A stretch of 47,501 bases of DNA from positions 1 to 47,501 of IMG/VR virus record IMGVR_UViG_3300045996_000864. One strand, given 5' to 3'. Position 1 is the first letter of the stretch. Each line of letters opens with the position of its first letter. A program made the translations under genes and the position numbers. The notes under the pieces were generated by a model. That model made no database searches. It was given only the letters and a program-made list of their open reading frames with translations, and was not told where the DNA came from. Shown one piece after another: positions 5,529-47,501 of this stretch. This DNA is from a virus.

Positions 5529-6019
5529 GCCCCAAGGGTAGGTAGGGGGACACCCCCTATCCCCCACATACACCCCCCACAAACCGGGCCTATCCCACCC
5601 CACCCCCAGAAGGGGCCACACCCCACCCAGAATCACCTGACATTTGTGAACGGAGAGTTATATATATACACACATACAGTAACAAACACCTGGGTCCGCT
5701 CGCGTGCCCGCGCGCGCGTGGCGCGGCCCGCTGCACAGCGTCTGACCTGCATAAATACATGAATGTAAGATCATGTAGTACCCCCTCCCCCCTCCCCCCA
5801 TGGGGGGTATCCACCCGGACTACCCATGTGGTAGTGGGTTAAGTGGAGGATGTCTCCGTTTAGGTGCGATAGGCCGCACCCTCATGCGTGTTACTTCGGG
5901 TCACACCTGTCGTCAGCTGGGGCTGCGTGCCGTGACCTAACTGTGACTTGACTCTGTGCCGGCTTGAGGGTCAGCCTTGAGAGGTACAAGGGCAGCAGTA
6001 CTTCAAGGGAGTGGTGGTC
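5529..6019. promoter_or_regulatory. Divergent control region: G/C tracts, TA island, palindromes
   Basis: This non-coding stretch lies between divergent operons. From 5530 to 5640 the plus strand has many C-runs, giving the minus strand repeated runs of three to six G that could form quadruplexes. A TA island (ttatatatatacacacatac) lies near 5658-5678, and an alternating CG run near 5708-5720. Palindromes are CCCCCCATGGGGGG at 5794-5807, ACTACC/GGTAGT at 5819-5835 and GGTGCG/CGCACC at 5863-5880. Just before the first plus-strand gene come TTGACT (5948), TACAAG (5985) and AGTACTTC (5997). Promoters or a replication origin are plausible here but not proven. Confidence 0.55.
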
Positions 6020-22222: not shown

Positions 22223-22519
22223 TCAACGTGGTAACGGTGTGTGAGTATCCACAGGTTTATCCAACTTTTCGTGATGCGTGTGCACCACGCCAGCCCACAC
22301 GCCAGTGACAATTCCGAACTCGGCCCGCGCCGCCTCATACTCGGACTGACACCAGTCCCGCACGGGGCAGCCGTCGCAGATTTTGATGGCCTCACGCTGG
22401 AGGTGAGTCCTGCGGGAGAAGAAGAGGGCCGTCTTGCCCGCGCATGCGACCTGGCGGATGCCAGGGTCGCTAGATGCGGACAGCCTCGCTGCCGCATCGG
22501 CGGGAGAGGGCGCCGTCAC
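22223..22519 (-). CDS. WhiB-like [4Fe-4S] transcriptional regulator
   Basis: This 98-residue protein has the Wbl signature: Cys26, then Cys48, Cys51 and Cys57 (the CxxCxxxxxC in KICDGCPVRDWCQ), and a GVWAG turn at about 73-77. Wbl proteins are specific to actinobacteria and their phages. They hold a 4Fe-4S cluster and act by binding the primary sigma factor; phage-encoded ones can block host Wbl function. The GTG start overlaps the upstream stop (GTGA). Downstream is an unusual GTTGACC palindrome. This is the best single indicator of host phylum. Confidence 0.93.
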   Translation of the reverse strand: MTAPSPADAAARLSASSDPGIRQVACAGKTALFFSRRTHLQREAIKICDGCPVRDWCQSEYEAARAEFGIVTGVWAGVVHTHHEKLDKPVDTHTPLPR

Positions 22520-22809
22520 TCGTCACCGCGCAGCAGCGAGGCGTGAAGGCGAAGGTCTCGCGCCGCGCGCTCGTAGCCGATGGCCTTGCCCGTCAGATGC
22601 AGGGTCCGGTCCCGTTCCGGATCGTCATTCAAGCGGTCGTATGCGATGGCAACTTCATCGAACTGAAGGGAGATGCGCTCCAGTTCGGCCGCGACGATGA
22701 ACGGCGCTGCGGCTTTGAGGATCGCAGTGCACTCGCCCGTGGTGGCGAAGGTTGCCCGGTAGGCGGCGGCGTACGCCTCCTCCGGGATCTCGACGTTTCC
22801 TTGTTCCAT
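22516..22809 (-). CDS. Helical hypothetical protein before whiB
   Basis: From the ATG at 22809 this gives 97 residues, MEQGNVEIPEEAYAAAYRAT, then a helical body (FIVAAELERISLQFDEVAIA, YERAARDLRLHASLLRGDE). The ATG lies shortly after the GTACTT...ACAAGT control motif with little room for an untranslated leader. In-frame sequence further upstream is poor as protein. It is co-transcribed with whiB. Similar small helical phage proteins exist, but I cannot name a function. Confidence 0.72.
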   Translation of the reverse strand: MEQGNVEIPEEAYAAAYRATFATTGECTAILKAAAPFIVAAELERISLQFDEVAIAYDRLNDDPERDRTLHLTGKAIGYERAARDLRLHASLLRGDE

Positions 22810-22832: not shown

Positions 22833-22985
22833 GGGCAGAAGCAAGACAATCTTGAAAGTTACTCCGAATGGAGTAGTTTAGAAGCTCACGGACTGGACCT
22901 GTACCTGGCGGATACCGCCAAACGGGTGAATTTCGCCGGCACTGGTATGGATCCGCAAGATCCAATTGTTGTTCTTGGCGTCTAG

Positions 22986-23181
22986 GTTGTCGCCGGAACG
23001 GGGAGGCGACAACGCAGGCCGGCAACGCCGGCACAGCACCAGTCCAGGCCGAGCCTCCAAAGCTCGGCCCTCCAGTAACAGTACAAGTACAGGCCGACGC
23101 CAGCTGGAGCGTCGGCACAGTGTGAGCCGCCTGCTGCCAACGGCGGCTCACCTAGTACCTGGTCACGCGCGTTGCGCGACC
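22986..23181. other. Array of six consecutive hairpins in a non-coding region
   Basis: Within a 500-base gap between divergent operons I find six stem-loops in a row. H1: GTTGTCGCC/GGCGACAAC (22986-23013). H2: GCCGGC/GCCGGC with loop AAC (23018-23032). H3: GGCCGAGC/GCTCGGCC (23047-23069). H4: GCCGACGC/GCGTCGGC (23093-23116). H5: GTGAGCCGCC/GGCGGCTCAC (23122-23151). H6: GGT-CGCGC/GCGCG-ACC (23161-23181). Five have perfect arms. GTACAAGTAC (23081-23090) sits between H3 and H4. It could be a replication origin, a structured RNA or a regulatory hub. It is not a tRNA. Confidence 0.72.
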
Positions 23182-23316
23182 CTTGCTTCAGGTCCCGGAC
23201 TACCTACTGATGCGTGCGGGAAGCGTGAAAATCTCCCTATCCAGACTCGTCTGACGCGAATCAGAAACATGACAGGTTCTGTTGACCTTCGCTTGCAGTA
23301 CTGCTGTCCTTGATTC

Positions 23317-24207
23317 ATGAAAGAGTCCACCTGCGAAGCCGACCGCCATGGCGACACCTACATGGCGTACACCAACTGGCGCTGTCGCTGCCCCGCAGCC
23401 AAGCGCGCCTGGAAGCTGTACAAGGGCGACAAGAGCAAAGGCACCCTGGTGTACCTGCGGGTGGATGCGACCGGCACTCGCCGAAGGATCCAAGCCCTCA
23501 TGGCCATGGGGTGGACTCAGCGCGATATCGGCCGCGAGATGGGCATCGGCCACGGTGGCGTCAGCAAGCTGACCAAGGGTGAGAAGGTTCGGCAGTCCAA
23601 CGTGGACCGCGTCGCCGAGGTCTACGAGCGCCTGTCCTGCCTGGTTCCGCCGGAGAGTCACGCGGCCGAGCGCACCCGCCGGCTCGCGTACCGCAACGGC
23701 TGGCCCCCGCCGATGCTCTGGGACGACATCGACGACCAGAGCGAGCAGCCCAGGCCACTGCCGCCGGCCCAGGGGTACGCCCGGCTCGACTACCGCGGCA
23801 AGAGTGACGACCCCTGCTTGGTCGAGGGCTGCGCTACGGGACGCTGGAGAGCGGGCCTGTGCGCGCGGCACTTCACCGTGTACCGCGCAGAGGTGGTCGA
23901 GTGCGGGCACCCGCGTTGTGGCGCGATGGTGTGGCGCCTCGAATACTGCGCCCATCACGACATTGGCTTGGACTTCGCCGCGGGCGACTGGTTCGACTGG
24001 GCCGCGGTGGAGCAGATGTTCGACGGCCACTACGACCGCAGTCGCAAGCCCACCGTCCTGGAGATCAGGGCTCTGGTCGCCAAGGCTGACAGGCGGCAGT
24101 TGCCGTACACGGATCTGGCCCGGCAGATGGGCGTGGATCCGACACGGTTCGAGTACTGGCGTGCCGCGGCGGAGCGGCTGCACGAGAGCCTGTCGCTGGC
24201 CGCATGA
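23317..24207 (+). CDS. Helix-turn-helix and zinc-finger DNA-binding protein, 296 residues
   Basis: A helix-turn-helix occupies about residues 58-90 (RIQALMAMGWTQRDIGREMG then IGHGGVSKLTKGEKVRQSN). A Cys/His-rich middle (CLVEGCATGRWRAGLCARHF, then CGHPRCGAMVWRLEYCAHH) has the spacing of two zinc fingers. A second short HTH-like helix pair (DRRQLPYTDLARQMGVDPTR) lies near the C-terminus. It would bind DNA, perhaps at the hairpin array directly upstream or at the recurrent motif. The ATG is the first after the array, with no strong Shine-Dalgarno. It is a candidate regulator or replication initiator. Confidence 0.78.
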   Translation: MKESTCEADRHGDTYMAYTNWRCRCPAAKRAWKLYKGDKSKGTLVYLRVDATGTRRRIQALMAMGWTQRDIGREMGIGHGGVSKLTKGEKVRQSNVDRVAEVYERLSCLVPPESHAAERTRRLAYRNGWPPPMLWDDIDDQSEQPRPLPPAQGYARLDYRGKSDDPCLVEGCATGRWRAGLCARHFTVYRAEVVECGHPRCGAMVWRLEYCAHHDIGLDFAAGDWFDWAAVEQMFDGHYDRSRKPTVLEIRALVAKADRRQLPYTDLARQMGVDPTRFEYWRAAAERLHESLSLAA

Positions 24208-27496: not shown

Positions 27497-29371
27497 CTAC
27501 ACCTGCCTCAGGATGACGTTGAGAGTTCCCCCGAACTTGTTGTTCGTCGCCAAGCCCACGTCCTGGCGGAACTGGGCGCGCGTGACCTCGGCCTGATAGT
27601 TGACGTTCAGCAGCCTGTCCTGCACCGTCACCTGCTCCGAACGCTGAGCCAAAGCCAGCAGCGGCAGCAGCCGGTCCTTCGCGTAGCCGTCGTAGCCGAT
27701 CTGCTCCTGGCCCTCAGCCTGCTCCCGGTCGAAGCAGTGCAGCGGCAGCGTCACCTCAGGGAACCGGGTAGGTGTCGGCTTCGCCTTCATCTGCCAGCTG
27801 CGCAGCAGCACCCCATGTCCACCGTCGTTATCGCGCAGGGTGAAGTGCAGGCGGAACGCCTGGCTAGCGGCCAGGCCCTGGCAGGAGAACTCGAAGTTGG
27901 ACCCACCACCGGCCACGTTGAACGTGACCGTTTCGCCCTCAGCGTTCTCTACTGTCACCGACAGGACCGAGTCAATACCAGCCACCGCGGGCAGCTCGCC
28001 CTCCACGCTCACGTAGTGCAGCCGCTTCGGCTCGGTCGTCCCGAACCGAGCCCACGACGTGGTCAGGGTCGCCTCATCCGGCAGGTACTCGGGCTGCGAC
28101 AGCAACTGTCCGCCTTCGGTCACGCCGAAGATCAGGCCGCCTGCGTGCACCTCGATACCGGTTACCACATCGTCGGCATCCACGCCGACACCCGAGACCG
28201 CTTTGGCGTGGGCGTAGCCGCCCGCCTGGTCGGTGGGTGTAGCTAGGTCGATCCACCACACCGAGTCCTGCGCACCCGCATAGATGAGGGTGCCGTCACC
28301 CGTCAGCGAGTGGCACGGCACATCCTCAATGAGGAGAGTGCCCATCTGCGGCTGGCCGTATGGGGTGAATGAGCCGACCCTGGCACCGTTGGTGGTGGCC
28401 AGGGCGAACAGGGAGCCCACGTAGAAGAACAGGTCGTTGACCAGTTCCCGCGGGGGCATGCGCAGCTGCACCACGGGCGGGCCGAGCACCAGTGTGCCGG
28501 CCGACTCGGTCACCGACATGCTGGACACGTCGCTCTTGGTGCCGGAGTAGCCGGCCAGATAGATCCCGTTCGGGCCTTCCGCCACGGTCGTGTACACGTA
28601 GTCGGTGGACGGGTTGATGTAGTGCGGGGTGTGCGTGGTGTCGGGCGGCGCTGGAGGGTCGGGGTCCAGCTCGAACACCTCGTTGCCGATGCAGGCGATC
28701 AGCCGCTGCTTGGCGAAGCCCAACACCACCGGGCCCGTGAACGGGATGTCAGTGGAGTGGATGAGGGTCGCGACACCTGCCGAGTCGATGCGGTAGATGG
28801 CGTCGCTGATGGCGACGAAGATGTTCACGCCGTCGGTGGTCATCGCCGCGGGCACGCCCGACGCACCCAACACCACCGTAGTGGTGGACAGGAGGCCGGG
28901 CAGGGTGGAGATGTACACCTCGTTGTCCGAGTTGCTGGCTGTGACCAGCCGCTGCGTAGCGGACCAGGTGACCTGTTCACACAGGTTCCGGCCGAGGGAC
29001 AGCGAGGAGAACTGACCGGCGATAGTGACCTGTCCAGCCTCGTGCACGTACGCAGCGTCGGACGTATCAAAGCGGATACGTGCGATCTCCGGATTGCCTG
29101 AGTCCAGGTACTTCTGCGCGCAGCCGCCGTGGAAGCTGGCCTGCGAGCGCAGCCACCAGTCACCGAAGGAGTTCTCTCCGGCCTGCTGCGAGCTGTCGAA
29201 CTGCTCCTTCTCCGAGGGGCGGATGTCCCACAGCAGCGGGTCCTGCTGAGAGGGCGCCACCCGGAACGGGATCCCACCGATCATGATGTCGTGGGGTACG
29301 CCGCGCTCTATCGCGGCCGTCAATCGGCCCGACAGGATGAACGGTACTGTGACCGGCGGCGCTGGACTCAC
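27497..29371 (-). CDS. Tail nozzle-like protein (beta-propeller)
   Basis: This 624-residue protein is nearly all beta, with repeated blade-like units, for example MTTDGVNIFVAISDAIYRID, GFAKQRLIACIGNEVFELDP, GDGTLIYAGAQDSVWWIDLA and EVHAGGLIFGVTEGGQLLSQ. A beta-propeller at this point, after a tail-adaptor-like protein, fits the nozzle of podoviruses (tail tubular protein B of T7, gp10 of P22). The C-terminal 200 residues form another beta domain. The GTG start has GGAG upstream. The assignment is by fold pattern and gene order, not by a close match. Confidence 0.72.
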   Translation of the reverse strand: MSPAPPVTVPFILSGRLTAAIERGVPHDIMIGGIPFRVAPSQQDPLLWDIRPSEKEQFDSSQQAGENSFGDWWLRSQASFHGGCAQKYLDSGNPEIARIRFDTSDAAYVHEAGQVTIAGQFSSLSLGRNLCEQVTWSATQRLVTASNSDNEVYISTLPGLLSTTTVVLGASGVPAAMTTDGVNIFVAISDAIYRIDSAGVATLIHSTDIPFTGPVVLGFAKQRLIACIGNEVFELDPDPPAPPDTTHTPHYINPSTDYVYTTVAEGPNGIYLAGYSGTKSDVSSMSVTESAGTLVLGPPVVQLRMPPRELVNDLFFYVGSLFALATTNGARVGSFTPYGQPQMGTLLIEDVPCHSLTGDGTLIYAGAQDSVWWIDLATPTDQAGGYAHAKAVSGVGVDADDVVTGIEVHAGGLIFGVTEGGQLLSQPEYLPDEATLTTSWARFGTTEPKRLHYVSVEGELPAVAGIDSVLSVTVENAEGETVTFNVAGGGSNFEFSCQGLAASQAFRLHFTLRDNDGGHGVLLRSWQMKAKPTPTRFPEVTLPLHCFDREQAEGQEQIGYDGYAKDRLLPLLALAQRSEQVTVQDRLLNVNYQAEVTRAQFRQDVGLATNNKFGGTLNVILRQV

Positions 29372-42800: not shown

Positions 42801-45800
42801 GCGCCTCCGGTCCACATGCGTGGAGCGCTCCGCCATGTTCCACGCGTAGGACTCGGCCGCGCTGCCGAACTGCTTGGCGGCGCCTTCCAGCATCAGCTGA
42901 GCCAGCTCAGCGTCTAGGTGCTCGTCGAGCGGGGTGTCTTCCAGGTTGCCACCCTTGCGCTCTGCACGTGCGGCGCGCACCTTTCGGACCCTGTCCAGCG
43001 GTCCGATCATTGCGAGGTGGCGGACCTTGCGTTCCGAACCCGAGGCCAGCAGCTCCCCGTACTCCTGAAGGTCCACGTCCTGCGACAGGCGGGCCATCAC
43101 CTCGGCCGCGCCGGGGTTGTAGCCCTCCTTCTGGAGCATGGACGCCACGGTGTTCACGTACCGCTCAGGCTGGGCGCGGCGCACGTTCTCCAGCATCGCC
43201 AAGTCATCGGGGTTCAGATTGTTGACGCTATTCGCCAGTCGCTCCAGGTCGTGATCGGCGACCTTGCGGTTCAGCACATCCGACTTCACGGCCTTGCGAG
43301 CTTTGCGGTACTCGCCAAGCACCTTCGGGTCACGCCACGCCGAGAACACCGCCAGCTCAAGACCCTGCCGGAACATGTTTGACCAGGTGGTGACCTTCGA
43401 ACTCTTCCACGCGCGCACGAGGGCGTTCGCCGTCTGACCGTCGGAGGTACGGGTGACGGCGTTCAGCAGCCAGTTGCGGTTGCTCAAGCCACGCAACTCG
43501 CGCCAGTTGGGCAGCTCGAAGCCCTCGGACAGCTGCCAGGGGTGCACTGCGGCCGGCATCTTCAGGTCGCCCACGCGGATGTAGTTGCCATCCGGCGTGG
43601 TGTAGTACTCGCGCGGACCCGACTTGTACCCGTTGATGTACTCGCCCTGTGGGACCAGGCCCTTCGTGAGCTGGTCCACGATCTTCTGCGACTCGGGCGT
43701 GTTCCGCAGATTCATCACGTTCAGCAGGGAGCCCATGGTTTGGCGGGTCATGGCCCACCGTTCCGCCGGGTTGGCTCCGGCGTACATGGTGGTCATCATC
43801 TGCGCTTGTCGGCGCGGCATGAACTGGCTGACCAGCTGGCCGAATACCTTCACCGAGTCCGGGGAGGACGGCACGATGACCTTGTTCGAGAACGTCTTCT
43901 CGAACGCTCGCCACCCGCGGCTGTACATGTGGGTGATGCCGAACGTGTAGTTGTTGCGGTACCACTCGCTGGCCTCGGGGGACACCAGCGTGTCCCACCT
44001 GCCAGCCTCGTCCGCAACCAGATGTCCGTCGAGGTCCAGCGGCTTCTTGCCGACCTCCCTCAGCTGCTTCATCACCGACTTGTCGCGCCGGTTGAACGCC
44101 TCCAGCACTGGTGCGATCTTGTCCCTGATCGCCCCGTTGATGGACAGCTGCCCGGGTAGCAGGAGGCGGCTGCCGGTGATCTCGCGGCCAGAGGCTGCGG
44201 CATCCATGAGGATGAAGGTGGACAGTTCCTCAGCCACCTTGGCGCGCTCCGCGGCGCGCTGCTCGGCCGTGAGCTTCGTGCCGTCGTCGTTGGTGTAGCG
44301 CCACAGGGGCTTACCGTCACCCGAAGAATCCAGGACCCAAGGCTGAATGTCGCGGCCAGTCTCGGCCGCTTTCCTCGCCTCCGGCAGTGCCTCTTCCACG
44401 GTGCGTGCCCGCACTTGACCGACGTTACCCGTCCGCTGCCCTACCAGCAGGTCCAGGGTCTTGTCGTAGCCCACGTACTTGCGGTTCCAGGAGGCCCGCA
44501 GCTTTGCTGCCGCGGGGGTGTCCAGGCCGACGCGAACCATCTCGTCGGCGGTCTCCATGGCCTGATCGAACCGCTTAGCAACGGCGCCCTTGGGGGCGTA
44601 GTTGTCGTCAGATGCGGCCAGCATGCGGGTAGCCTCGTCCAGCCTGTTGGCCGGCTGGAGCGCGAGCCCGTAGCGCGCTGCGCGGACAGCCTGGTAGCCC
44701 TTGGTGGCCAAAACGGTGGGGTCCAACTGCCAGGTGACGATGACTTCCAGGGCTGCGGAGGTAATGGCCCGGCCGGGGGAGTTCGGCCCGAACCACTGGC
44801 CGGGCTCCTGCTCCTTGTCGGTCATGAAGCCCTTGAGGATCCCGTATCCCAGACTGTCCTGCGACATGTCGCCGACCGCGCCAAGCAGCTCCTCGGCCTT
44901 CGGGTCCGTGGAGGCGCGCAGTACGAGGTCCTGCGCCTGCGGGGACAAGGCGGGGAATGCCCTGGCCAAGTCCTCCACCGCACCCGTTGTGACGATCTCG
45001 CGAGCGGCATCCACGTCCTCGGGGGACCAGCGCTTGTAGCCCTTCAGTTGCTCAATGTGCTCGTCGGTGACGGGTGCGCGCACTTCGCCGAAGTCTTGCG
45101 AGTAGTGGTTGATCCGGTCGCCCAGGCGATCCGGGTTCAGGCCAGCGTTCTTGATGTCCTGACGCTGTTCATCGGACTGGACTCCGGCGCCCAGGCGGCC
45201 CAGGCCCTCCGCGTAGTTGACGATGCCTTCGGTGAGGCCCAGGCCAAGGGAAAGGACGCCGCCTATGACGGGGATGCGGTCGACCCCTTCGTTGGCCCAC
45301 TGGAGGCCGTCGTCTACCGGGCTGTCAGTGGCATACCCGGCCGATAGCGGGGCCTGCACCGCGCGGTTCCAGGTCCAGGTGGCACCCTCAACCGCTTTCT
45401 CGCCAAGCCACGCCGCACCAGAACCCACATCCGCTACGCGGTTGGCGAACCAGCCCAGAACACCGCCCTCTTCTTCGGGCTTCGGGGCCTTGTCGTTCAG
45501 CTCCTTCAGTCGACCCTCGTAGGTGTCGGCCGTGGTCTCGTACGGGCTGCGGTTGGCGACCGATTCTTCCTGCGAGGTGTAGCCGGCGGTGTTCAGCTTC
45601 TTGCTGACATCTCGCGCCTTGCTGGCGTAGAACGCATCGAAACTGCGCATGGCCAGGGCCAGCGGCACGTCGGCATCGGCGAACGCCTTGAGCAGGTCGG
45701 GTTCGTCGCGGAACATGCCGTGACGCTGGAGCGTGGTGGAGTAGCGGATTCGCCGGTCCTCCACCGGTCGGCGGGCCGCGTTGACAATCCGGTCAGGATC

Positions 45801-45833
45801 CTCGACCCGTTGCCACCAGTACTTCTTAGCGAT
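39810..45833 (-). CDS. Very large internal virion protein (2007 residues)
   Basis: This is the largest gene of the window. From ATC at 45833 it begins MAKKYWWQRVEDPDRIVNAA; the same residues follow a GTG in the left copy, so translation from here is supported although ATC is a rare start. AGGAG lies five bases upstream. The protein is mostly helical, with a hydrophobic segment near residues 165-195 (GGVLSLGLGLTEGIVNYAEG) and no recognised enzyme motif. Size and place beside portal suit a head-carried ejection protein, like the large core proteins of T7-like phages. No lytic transglycosylase motif is visible. Confidence 0.8.
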   Translation of the reverse strand: MAKKYWWQRVEDPDRIVNAARRPVEDRRIRYSTTLQRHGMFRDEPDLLKAFADADVPLALAMRSFDAFYASKARDVSKKLNTAGYTSQEESVANRSPYETTADTYEGRLKELNDKAPKPEEEGGVLGWFANRVADVGSGAAWLGEKAVEGATWTWNRAVQAPLSAGYATDSPVDDGLQWANEGVDRIPVIGGVLSLGLGLTEGIVNYAEGLGRLGAGVQSDEQRQDIKNAGLNPDRLGDRINHYSQDFGEVRAPVTDEHIEQLKGYKRWSPEDVDAAREIVTTGAVEDLARAFPALSPQAQDLVLRASTDPKAEELLGAVGDMSQDSLGYGILKGFMTDKEQEPGQWFGPNSPGRAITSAALEVIVTWQLDPTVLATKGYQAVRAARYGLALQPANRLDEATRMLAASDDNYAPKGAVAKRFDQAMETADEMVRVGLDTPAAAKLRASWNRKYVGYDKTLDLLVGQRTGNVGQVRARTVEEALPEARKAAETGRDIQPWVLDSSGDGKPLWRYTNDDGTKLTAEQRAAERAKVAEELSTFILMDAAASGREITGSRLLLPGQLSINGAIRDKIAPVLEAFNRRDKSVMKQLREVGKKPLDLDGHLVADEAGRWDTLVSPEASEWYRNNYTFGITHMYSRGWRAFEKTFSNKVIVPSSPDSVKVFGQLVSQFMPRRQAQMMTTMYAGANPAERWAMTRQTMGSLLNVMNLRNTPESQKIVDQLTKGLVPQGEYINGYKSGPREYYTTPDGNYIRVGDLKMPAAVHPWQLSEGFELPNWRELRGLSNRNWLLNAVTRTSDGQTANALVRAWKSSKVTTWSNMFRQGLELAVFSAWRDPKVLGEYRKARKAVKSDVLNRKVADHDLERLANSVNNLNPDDLAMLENVRRAQPERYVNTVASMLQKEGYNPGAAEVMARLSQDVDLQEYGELLASGSERKVRHLAMIGPLDRVRKVRAARAERKGGNLEDTPLDEHLDAELAQLMLEGAAKQFGSAAESYAWNMAERSTHVDRRRITDAAGRNISFRPVKIVNGYEWADTNPHLWAAELGRRQSDPVGKMAIRLIAKKALANVDESRRVSALPPRAAEEVVEEVPTGVNLPPFTATADTDHVYDAVRAIESRTGGWVPLDKVRSHLAGLSREQVDEALKALDALPEVRIINEVNQKALTESQRAAALHVGGSDMHLIQIDKSVLDAPKTLPERPEVTKRRRVTAPAPEIRPDLDAQVADELAVELADLGIGAERFKNADDLMTHLYGEHELGASMRANGAALQYLPNGKPVRNPADRMAAAQHAAQRAVNDLVHHMGGKVTRIDGKLDIQFPDEAEPLLRKLSAGEELSAKELGELPAQVRPDGMVAPIYAPMIPEKQGFTRGLSNLATRAYGAVVADPLDKLFIMPAFTANRRIAQDELSPLMQGLIDKGMKPEQAAFMVEAAVNRRAVARTFQGTDNPMEKSVFSEMADKWLMFQRAQEDFLRRLVNATRANPEGLARANILMQAGVHTGIVHYEPFQDEEGNTEHHLTFTYPGTALAQRVLADAFAGLGLAPDEILRVPQFDGLKSQVRFLNPGFSNPLQFSANPIFGMTMTAAEKIWPSATVELERLKRGFAGGADFEGTEGPFSLKNMLPSMFSRFAVFASKDDADGQFQSAMRAALMYAEAAGLTPEADASPAERSRYLDAVKATTTNIMIQRAVFGTFLPAAPQVADPDGIDVDILARLQGLPNLRAEFFDIRNELAQKYPDNFFRADSEAVMEFARRYPGELIVNPAAFSTGSTKVAGVDEGYVPYTIEATRWLFENQEFARGNPTLAIALMPKSTADGDFSNEAYKLQLKSDIRTHKDIEEFYLDVTLSNDLDEYYSTRSRYFAAAKQQPSLEKSVYAKLGEWEDGWIRSHPLAAAELNRRSNPDFVHGEIAPGLGRLADGTDPLPENLASLRPQINEMWADYQEYREAYMKVSFYDNAGRSKLNSQYQRQGDIKWLGTPLSGLSMEDRQAIESQSGQLSGLWNLMRVTEGR

Positions 45834-45846
45834 GATGACTCCTAGG

Positions 45847-46296
45847 TCACTGGCCCATTTGAGCGAGGATGTTCACCAGGGCGGCAATGCCTTCGCCGCC
45901 ATCGCCCTGCGCGTACTCAGCGAGCTGCTCCGACACGCGCCTCTGCGGGCGCGGCATCTGCCCGCCAGTCACAGTGTTCGGGCCGGCGCCGATCGGGGCG
46001 CCAGACGTCACCGGCACGGACGGGTCGCCGGGATCGAACAGGCCCGGCAAGGGCCGGGGCTCCGCCTGTGGCAGGGCGGCGGGGCCAGCCGAGCTGGCCA
46101 GTCTGCGTGCCACCTCCGACGGGGGTGGACCAGCGGGTGCGCCAGGCGCAGCGGCAAGCGGAGCCTGCTTCTGCTGCTGCTCGAACGCCTGCGCCTCCCC
46201 ATACTTGGGGTCGGGTAGGGCGCGGACGGGCTGGCCGCCGGCATCGGTACGTTGCGAGAGGGCTCCGGGACCGCTGACACGTGCTGGACTAGTCAA
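45847..46296 (-). CDS. Proline/glutamine-rich structural-operon protein (copy 2)
   Basis: This is the second version of the 149-residue protein, the same length with about eight substitutions (for example the end reads NILAQMGQ instead of NILHAMGQ). Here the start is TTG overlapping the upstream stop as TTGACTAG, because the cassette gene is absent; the left copy uses ATG. Its stop is TGA, followed by a separate AGGAG ribosome site for the next gene. The N-terminus remains low-complexity and the C-terminal helix is conserved, which suggests that the C-terminus matters most. Confidence 0.82.
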   Translation of the reverse strand: MTSPARVSGPGALSQRTDAGGQPVRALPDPKYGEAQAFEQQQKQAPLAAAPGAPAGPPPSEVARRLASSAGPAALPQAEPRPLPGLFDPGDPSVPVTSGAPIGAGPNTVTGGQMPRPQRRVSEQLAEYAQGDGGEGIAALVNILAQMGQ

Positions 46297-46474
46297 CGTT
46301 CACCTCGTCGTGGAACTCCGAGCCCGCCCCGAAGCCCAGCTTCTGGGTCGCGCGAGCGCCCTTCAGTAGGTCGACGCAGTGCGAGGTGAGCTTGCCCAGA
46401 TCCTTGCGGGTCAGCTCCGCCTTCTGGGCGATGGTGATGGAGCCCTTGCCTTCGACAATGACCTCAATCTGCAC
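46289..46474 (-). CDS. Small conserved protein after portal (copy 2)
   Basis: This is the second version of the 61-residue protein, starting GTG two bases after the portal stop. Residues 1-51 are identical to the left copy and the tail differs (SEFHDEVNVD). The different tail coincides with the cassette boundary. Unknown function. Confidence 0.8.
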   Translation of the reverse strand: MQIEVIVEGKGSITIAQKAELTRKDLGKLTSHCVDLLKGARATQKLGFGAGSEFHDEVNVD

Positions 46475-46475
46475 G

Positions 46476-47501
46476 TCAGATACCGCCTGTCGCTCGCTTG
46501 CGGCTAACCGATGCTTCGAGATGCGCCTGCCCATTACCCCTCAGGGACGACAACAGGCCCTGCACCGTGGGCATACCGCCCGGCGCCTGCCCCGCCTGGC
46601 CGTACGGCACGCCCTCCTGGAGCCCGTTCGGGCGTACGCCCGGCGGAAGCTCCGGCCCACCAGGCCCAGCAGGTGCACCTTCCGGCCCCATGGGCTGCTC
46701 CGGGACCTCAGGCTCCGGCTGTTCGGGCGGGGTGAACGCCTTGATCAGCGCCTCATCCAGAGACAGGCCCTTCTTGCGCAGCCTCAGCACCTCGGCCTGC
46801 GCCTTCAGTACGGGCAGCGGGTCCTGCCCCTGCATGGCCATAGGGCCGAACGCCTGCGACAGGCCCATCAGCCCTTGCCTGGCGGCCTGGGTGATGTTCT
46901 CAATGTCAATCTGCCGCTGCTCCTCGTCCGGGTCCAGGTCGAACGGCAACTGCCGGCGGGTGGTGTCCTGCGAGATCAGTCCGCCACCGAGGAGCTGGAG
47001 CAAGGCAACGATGGCCTGGGCTGGGGTCTGGCCGGCAGAAAAACCATATGTGACCTTGCAGGCGTAGCTGTCACCAATGTCCTTGGCCGGCGTGTAGTTC
47101 AGCTCGAACGGCTTGCCGGTCAGCACCCCGGAGATGCGCTTCTGCACGTCTGGCCACAGGGCCACGTCCAGCGCGAAGCAGAGTTCGGTGACCTCTTCCA
47201 GGGCCTTGCCAATCACGGTCTGCATGGTGCGGACCTGGGTGTTCATGGTGCCCATGAGGGCCTCAACACCCTGACCGGTGATGATGTTGGCGTTGACACC
47301 GCCAGTGCGGGCCTCCGGGTAGCGGGAGCCCTCCTTCACCGCCCTGTCCAGCTGCTCGTTGACGGCGAAGATGTCATCCGGTACATCGAGACGGACACGA
47401 GCCACTTGCTGCGGGTTCTGGGTGCGGATCGTGGCGTCAGGCCCGTAGGGCATCTCCGTCACGTCGTCAGGCATGGCAATCGGGGCGTTGATGGCCTTGT
47501 C
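46476..47501 (-). CDS. Portal protein, C-terminal part (cut by window edge)
   Basis: This frame encodes the last 341 residues of portal and runs off the right edge. It matches residues 267-607 of the left-hand portal with few changes, for example the final residue is Ile instead of Met. Most differences are synonymous, showing purifying selection on both copies. It is complete on the circular map only if the window ends are joined. Confidence 0.92.
   Translation of the reverse strand, partial: DKAINAPIAMPDDVTEMPYGPDATIRTQNPQQVARVRLDVPDDIFAVNEQLDRAVKEGSRYPEARTGGVNANIITGQGVEALMGTMNTQVRTMQTVIGKALEEVTELCFALDVALWPDVQKRISGVLTGKPFELNYTPAKDIGDSYACKVTYGFSAGQTPAQAIVALLQLLGGGLISQDTTRRQLPFDLDPDEEQRQIDIENITQAARQGLMGLSQAFGPMAMQGQDPLPVLKAQAEVLRLRKKGLSLDEALIKAFTPPEQPEPEVPEQPMGPEGAPAGPGGPELPPGVRPNGLQEGVPYGQAGQAPGGMPTVQGLLSSLRGNGQAHLEASVSRKRATGGI

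Follow-up and report, generated by a model that had tools for sequence, protein, structure and literature searches.

What do six consecutive, non-identical stem-loops do in a gap that carries no convincing gene? They occupy positions 22986-23181 of the record IMGVR_UViG_3300045996_000864, an IMG/VR viral contig of 47501 bases, the whole of which we refer to as the window; a sequence-only reading of this DNA had proposed a replication origin, a structured RNA or a partition or packaging signal. The two ends of the record (1-2297 and 45386-47501) are 91-95% alike over ~2 kb. Since these ends repeat each other, the record probably wraps round a genome of ~45 kb, near-identical strains having been assembled together with their strain variation, and the genome can be taken as effectively complete. 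The source is a soil actinobacterial virus, a temperate phage with an integrase.

The array sits between two divergent gene groups, and the earlier observation that the gene list leaves this gap unexplained was borne out. The leftward operon opens with a gene from the ORF list that codes for 97 aa (22516..22809, - strand), with no family match in protein family searches, followed by a WhiB-like gene (22223..22519, - strand; Pfam PF02467) and, beyond it, a replication set on the same strand: a PD-(D/E)XK nuclease, a DnaB-like helicase, a primase and an exonuclease. This early operon also holds a NADAR-domain gene (Pfam PF08719; 20084-20524, - strand). The rightward operon starts with an HTH gene (23317..24207, + strand), recognized in family searches, and includes a small HTH gene and a tyrosine integrase; a repressor-like 144-aa gene lies near these on the opposite strand. 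An XRE-like HTH domain is present in the window's main HTH protein and absent from the versions in two close relatives (G001 and G002, see below), the parts common to all three being the N- and C-terminal ones only.

The perfect arms of the six hairpins measure 9, 6, 8, 8, 10 and 5 bp. Hairpin 1 (22986-23013) pairs GTTGTCGCC with GGCGACAAC over 9 bp around a 10-nt loop; hairpin 2 (23018-23032) has the 6-bp arms GCCGGC/GCCGGC and the loop AAC; hairpin 3 (23047-23069) has the 8-bp arms GGCCGAGC/GCTCGGCC and a loop containing TCCA, which recurs in relatives. Between hairpins 3 and 4 runs a conserved linker, CCAGTAACAGTACAAGTAC (23072-23090), which contains GTACAAGTAC and is like linkers in the relatives L040 and L098. 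Hairpin 4 (23093-23116) combines the 8-bp arms GCCGACGC/GCGTCGGC with an 8-nt loop, and hairpin 5 (23122-23151), the most conserved stem, the 10-bp arms GTGAGCCGCC/GGCGGCTCAC with a 10-nt loop. A further linker, CTAGTACCTGGT (23152-23163), with a counterpart (CTAGTACTGGT) in the L098 array upstream of terL, leads into hairpin 6 (23161-23181), whose perfect core is CGCGC/GCGCG at 23166-23178 and which reaches eight pairs only if one A/C mismatch is tolerated, a G-U when read on the - strand. Hence, four stems rather than the five previously counted have perfect arms of 8-10 bp, the sixth having 5 perfect pairs (8 with one wobble). The supposed 10-bp palindrome in the middle of the array, GTACAAGTAC (GTAC-AA-GTAC), is not palindromic, its reverse complement being GTACTTGTAC; as for its being a recurrent motif, it occurs exactly only once, and recurrence appears only with up to one mismatch (three sites against 0.6 expected). 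Between the array and the leftward operon there is also an unstructured conserved box, TACCGCCAAACGGGTGAA (22913-22930), which is the same in G002 though not in G001.

Chance folding does not account for these stems: counting those of at least 6 bp, they total 41 bp, against a mean of 4.2 (sd 4.7, maximum 20) in dinucleotide shuffles, none of 1000 of which reached the array. When stems of at least 7 bp are counted, its score is unmatched by any other 200-nt segment of the record, in which it forms the densest hairpin cluster; the - strand also folds better than its shuffles (z -3.5). The existence of six consecutive, non-identical stem-loops in the gap was thereby confirmed.

Three close relatives, 70-75% identical, were found via a tail-region protein (27497-29371), and the gap is present in two of them, G001 and G002, the contig of the third starting beyond it. 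Queries with the small HTH, 144-aa and main HTH proteins returned these three alone; the array region had no DNA match in phage and plasmid collections, and no prophage relatives turned up when genome collections were scanned for the neighbouring proteins. In both G001 and G002 the same divergent junction holds six hairpins in the same order, with one extra in G002. Hairpin 1 lies ~180 bp from the leftward ATG in all three phages, and hairpin 6 lies 139 bp from the HTH gene in the window and G001, and 200 bp in G002. Hairpin number and order are kept, as are the linkers (e.g. CCAGTAACAGTAC/CCAGCAACAGTAC), and the loops retain their orientation.

The stems themselves have changed. The counterparts of hairpin 1 in L040 and L041 are again 9-bp stems, of different sequence. 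As MAFFT misaligned the stems, they were aligned by hand, and, with perfect stems chosen per phage and hairpins 2, 4 and 6 only approximately in register, the three pairwise comparisons show 16 of 44, 14 of 43 and 18 of 43 pairs altered in both arms yet still Watson-Crick. In these two relatives, therefore, the stems persist through changes in both arms, so that the sequence-only reading withstands the refutation it had itself proposed, and the gap contains a non-coding element conserved in structure. A coding explanation was rejected: the ORFs that span the array are not common to the relatives, and the differences in linker length are not multiples of three.

The location between divergent regulated operons is one where tandem DNA operators for the HTH or the repressor protein might be sought. 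However, the stems share no sequence with one another and change freely between relatives, so that no protein could read them by sequence, and only short linkers (GTAC, CAG) could be operators; we regard this explanation as very improbable.

The array is part of a wider pattern. More distant relatives were scanned whole or in part, arrays being picked by hairpin density alone, and such arrays were found in G006 (9 hairpins), G007 (21), G008 (21), G029 (22) and G023 (8); none of the shuffles (200-500 each) reached any of them, and several other scanned relatives have no array. Counting the window clade, every one of the eight arrays occupies a divergent gene junction, and nowhere else in its own record are hairpins as dense. 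The five of the wider family are found upstream of the terminase gene terL; in G006 the array is followed by a tRNA-Trp (CCA; L098 6621-6696) and then by terL. The linker motifs of the G006 array are like those of the window, CTAGTACTGGT-ACGCGC against CTAGTACCTGGT-CACGCGC and CCAGTAAGAG against CCAGTAACAG, a likeness which points to kinship of the two arrays at the level of these motifs. Among the matches listed, a search with the G006 array found matches only to its tRNA. The regions L100 13735-14490, L103 8905-9725 and L122 14525-15350, non-coding and upstream of terL, each hold 21-22 perfect hairpins with stems of up to 14 bp.

Does the fold act as RNA or as DNA? The stems of RNA genes pass through G-U pairs in the course of their evolution. 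Taking stems of six or more pairs as the starting point, and tRNA clusters as controls, we counted the pairs added when each type of mismatch was tolerated: the eight arrays gained 13 G-T, 17 A-C, 18 A-G and 15 C-T pairs, and the control tRNA cluster of Stella 33, 17, 14 and 18, respectively; in a second tRNA cluster (19, 16, 18 and 14) the G-U excess is weaker. In the four arrays most like that of the window there were zero G-T pairs. With no G-U excess on either strand, and none on the + strand in ~200 pairs, the stems are strictly Watson-Crick, which argues against a conventional structured RNA and suggests that the fold matters at the DNA level. Such strictness fits either folding of the DNA or one-step double changes by template switching, the latter being silent on function; the missing G-U pairs also agree with an RNA whose stems are strong and of terminator type, or with an RNA gene that undergoes template switching.

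Template switching by itself raises the prospect that the array is a functionless by-product of mutation, in which perfect hairpins are made and repaired in unconstrained DNA. It is known to create or mend perfect stems in one step (PMC8794818), and both the strict pairing and the simultaneous double changes fit such an origin. Against this stand the restriction to a single dense array in each genome, found every time at a divergent junction, and the conservation of number, order, linkers and loop orientation in three phages; we consider it quite unlikely that the array is no more than such a product.

A structured non-coding RNA or a long mRNA leader, the fold of which regulates early expression or acts in trans, is the main rival, though a doubtful one. 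The survival of pairing through double changes is as expected of an RNA, and a promoter-like TTGACA-N18-CAGTCT (+ strand, by eye) ends just before hairpin 1 in G001 and G002, although a match to it is missing in the window. The - strand folds well, as noted above, and hairpin 6 gains a G-U there; the clues to the strand conflict, however, the A-rich linkers speaking for + and the A/C mismatches for -. A search of Rfam 15 found no family at gathering score, only a chance-level mir-306 (20 bits against a threshold of 52), so the array belongs to no Rfam family. There is a precedent in the abundant early non-coding RNA of the mycobacteriophages L5, D29 and StarStuff, which has been demonstrated and is made from Pleft at the right end of the genome (PMC5712189): as here, the source is non-coding DNA within the early control region of a temperate actinobacterial phage, whereas the array of the window has no wobble pairs and is known from sequence alone. 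Taken with the wobble counts, this leaves the structured-RNA proposal of the sequence-only reading weakened: compensatory changes do keep the stems, while the G-U excess and the Rfam match are missing.

By eye, a candidate promoter for the HTH gene, TTGACC-N17-TGTCCT (23282-23310, + strand), is apparent directly before the ATG and downstream of the array, and G002 has the same layout with TTGACC-N16-CATACT; a promoter scan of the window gave no site at threshold. Transcription from such a promoter would start past the array in both phages, and the HTH mRNA need not contain the hairpins. None of the six stems is followed by a U-tract (CCTTG follows hairpin 6), and a small hairpin apart from them, at 22948-22964, is the only terminator-like match.

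Actinobacteria are known to have terminators that lack a U-tract, and its absence is therefore not decisive against the nearest ordinary explanation, in which clustered intrinsic terminators insulate the divergent operons or stop early read-through into the next one. GC-rich, wobble-free stems would suit such a role, as would the position of the relatives' arrays upstream of the late operon. Clusters of short contiguous hairpins, less than ~15 nt apart and behind stop codons, can act as terminators, in an actinobacterium as elsewhere (PMC8355165), and the spacing of the hairpins is similar here. Unlike those clusters, though, the array of the window lies between divergent operons and not behind genes. 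Its six stems have no U-tract, and 6-22 hairpins exceed what termination would need; we judge this explanation unlikely.

Turning to replication, the lowest point of the cumulative GC skew is at 21.8 kb, close to the array. The third-codon skew on the two sides of the array is 0.029 and 0.049 for genes on the - strand, and 0.045 and 0.046 for those on the + strand. As same-strand genes are alike on both sides, with no switch at the array, the minimum follows gene direction and is no evidence of an origin; the GC-skew argument for one thus found no support.

For packaging, the region upstream of terL is the relevant comparison. Exact direct terminal repeats, 253-396 bp long, lie upstream of terL in six cultured phages of Streptomyces, of which five are Beephvirinae and the sixth is Abafar (records L138-L147, for Dennebes, Manuel, Immanuel3, Abafar and FlowerPower, and L048/L049, for Stella); the end regions of these phages hold sparse hairpins only. 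A repeat-end motif of the type ACCCGGGGGTTGTTAA...GGGGAGTG is common to five of the six and was not seen at the Abafar ends; it recurs within the array of G007 and, in other relatives, upstream of terL. The location of both the arrays of five relatives and the cultured repeats upstream of terL makes a packaging or processing signal, as in part proposed by the sequence-only reading, a serious option. The case for it comes from the relatives; in the window the array is 18 kb from its terL, and a search for the repeat-end motif found none.

We tentatively favour, at somewhat less than an even chance, a cis-acting array of DNA hairpins which is read by its fold and serves replication, concatemer processing or packaging. 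Placed where the replication operon on the left diverges from the regulatory genes on the right, its arms would fold once one strand is exposed in replication, recombination or packaging, and the folded array, together with its short conserved linkers, may then be recognized by shape, the readers being phage or host DNA-processing proteins. Candidate roles would be a priming or origin function, or the processing of replication concatemers. Template switching from one arm to the other could alter both while bypassing wobble intermediates, selection then preserving the fold. Besides the distance to terL and the missing repeat-end motif, the constant third-codon skew across the array and the several array-free relatives count against a DNA-hairpin reading, as does the fact that loops of 7-10 nt and GC-rich stems do not make cruciform extrusion easy. 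As a broader proposition, which is possible though doubtful, a family of actinobacterial phages would share one array of 6 to 22 strictly Watson-Crick, non-identical hairpins in a divergent junction, read by its fold, which would serve DNA replication or the processing of concatemers and whose place would have shifted in evolution between the control region and the terminase end.

Several known DNA elements invite comparison with such an array. In phage T7 a hairpin takes part in concatemer processing at the terminal repeat. As in the relatives, where the arrays lie in the terminal-repeat/terL region, hairpin DNA is there close to a direct terminal repeat; T7, however, is known for a single palindrome, not an array, and a search of the window gave no terminal-repeat motif. 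To our knowledge, arrays of different perfect hairpins whose position is held while their sequence turns over are rare in tailed-phage genomes. Streptomyces telomeres contain tandem palindromes that function as folded single strands (PMC4513846), and share with the arrays the tight packing of different hairpins in non-coding actinobacterial DNA and, in G007, GCA triloops. In contrast, the array of the window is internal to an assembly with overlapping ends, its loops are mostly of 7-10 nt, and it has no GCA-type triloops, its one small loop being AAC; it resembles the telomere palindromes in appearance, and we do not class it with them. Among the proteins scanned, no Tap or Tpg terminal protein came up. 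Nor does it belong with the 17-bp palindrome of Cluster O mycobacteriophages (PMC4351075): both comprise many short inverted repeats, the latter being one fixed sequence scattered over the genome, whereas the stems of the window are all different and in one place.

If functional as DNA, the array would mark a fold-recognizing step in replication or packaging, and, if functional as RNA, a fast-evolving class of phage RNA that sequence searches miss. Either way, covariation alone is no proof of RNA, as these stems covary and do so without wobble intermediates.

Three smaller observations concern the same phages. In terL orientation the triloops of the G007 array are four GCA and one GAA. Upstream of terL in the window there are poly-C/G runs and a TATATATATACACACATAC stretch (5543-5807), possibly a terminus or promoter region, and similar features are found in G006 (L098 6130-6280). 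Finally, L103 7157-7221 (- strand), ~1.7 kb from the G008 array, encodes a hammerhead ribozyme of type II (Rfam RF02276, 52.8 bits).
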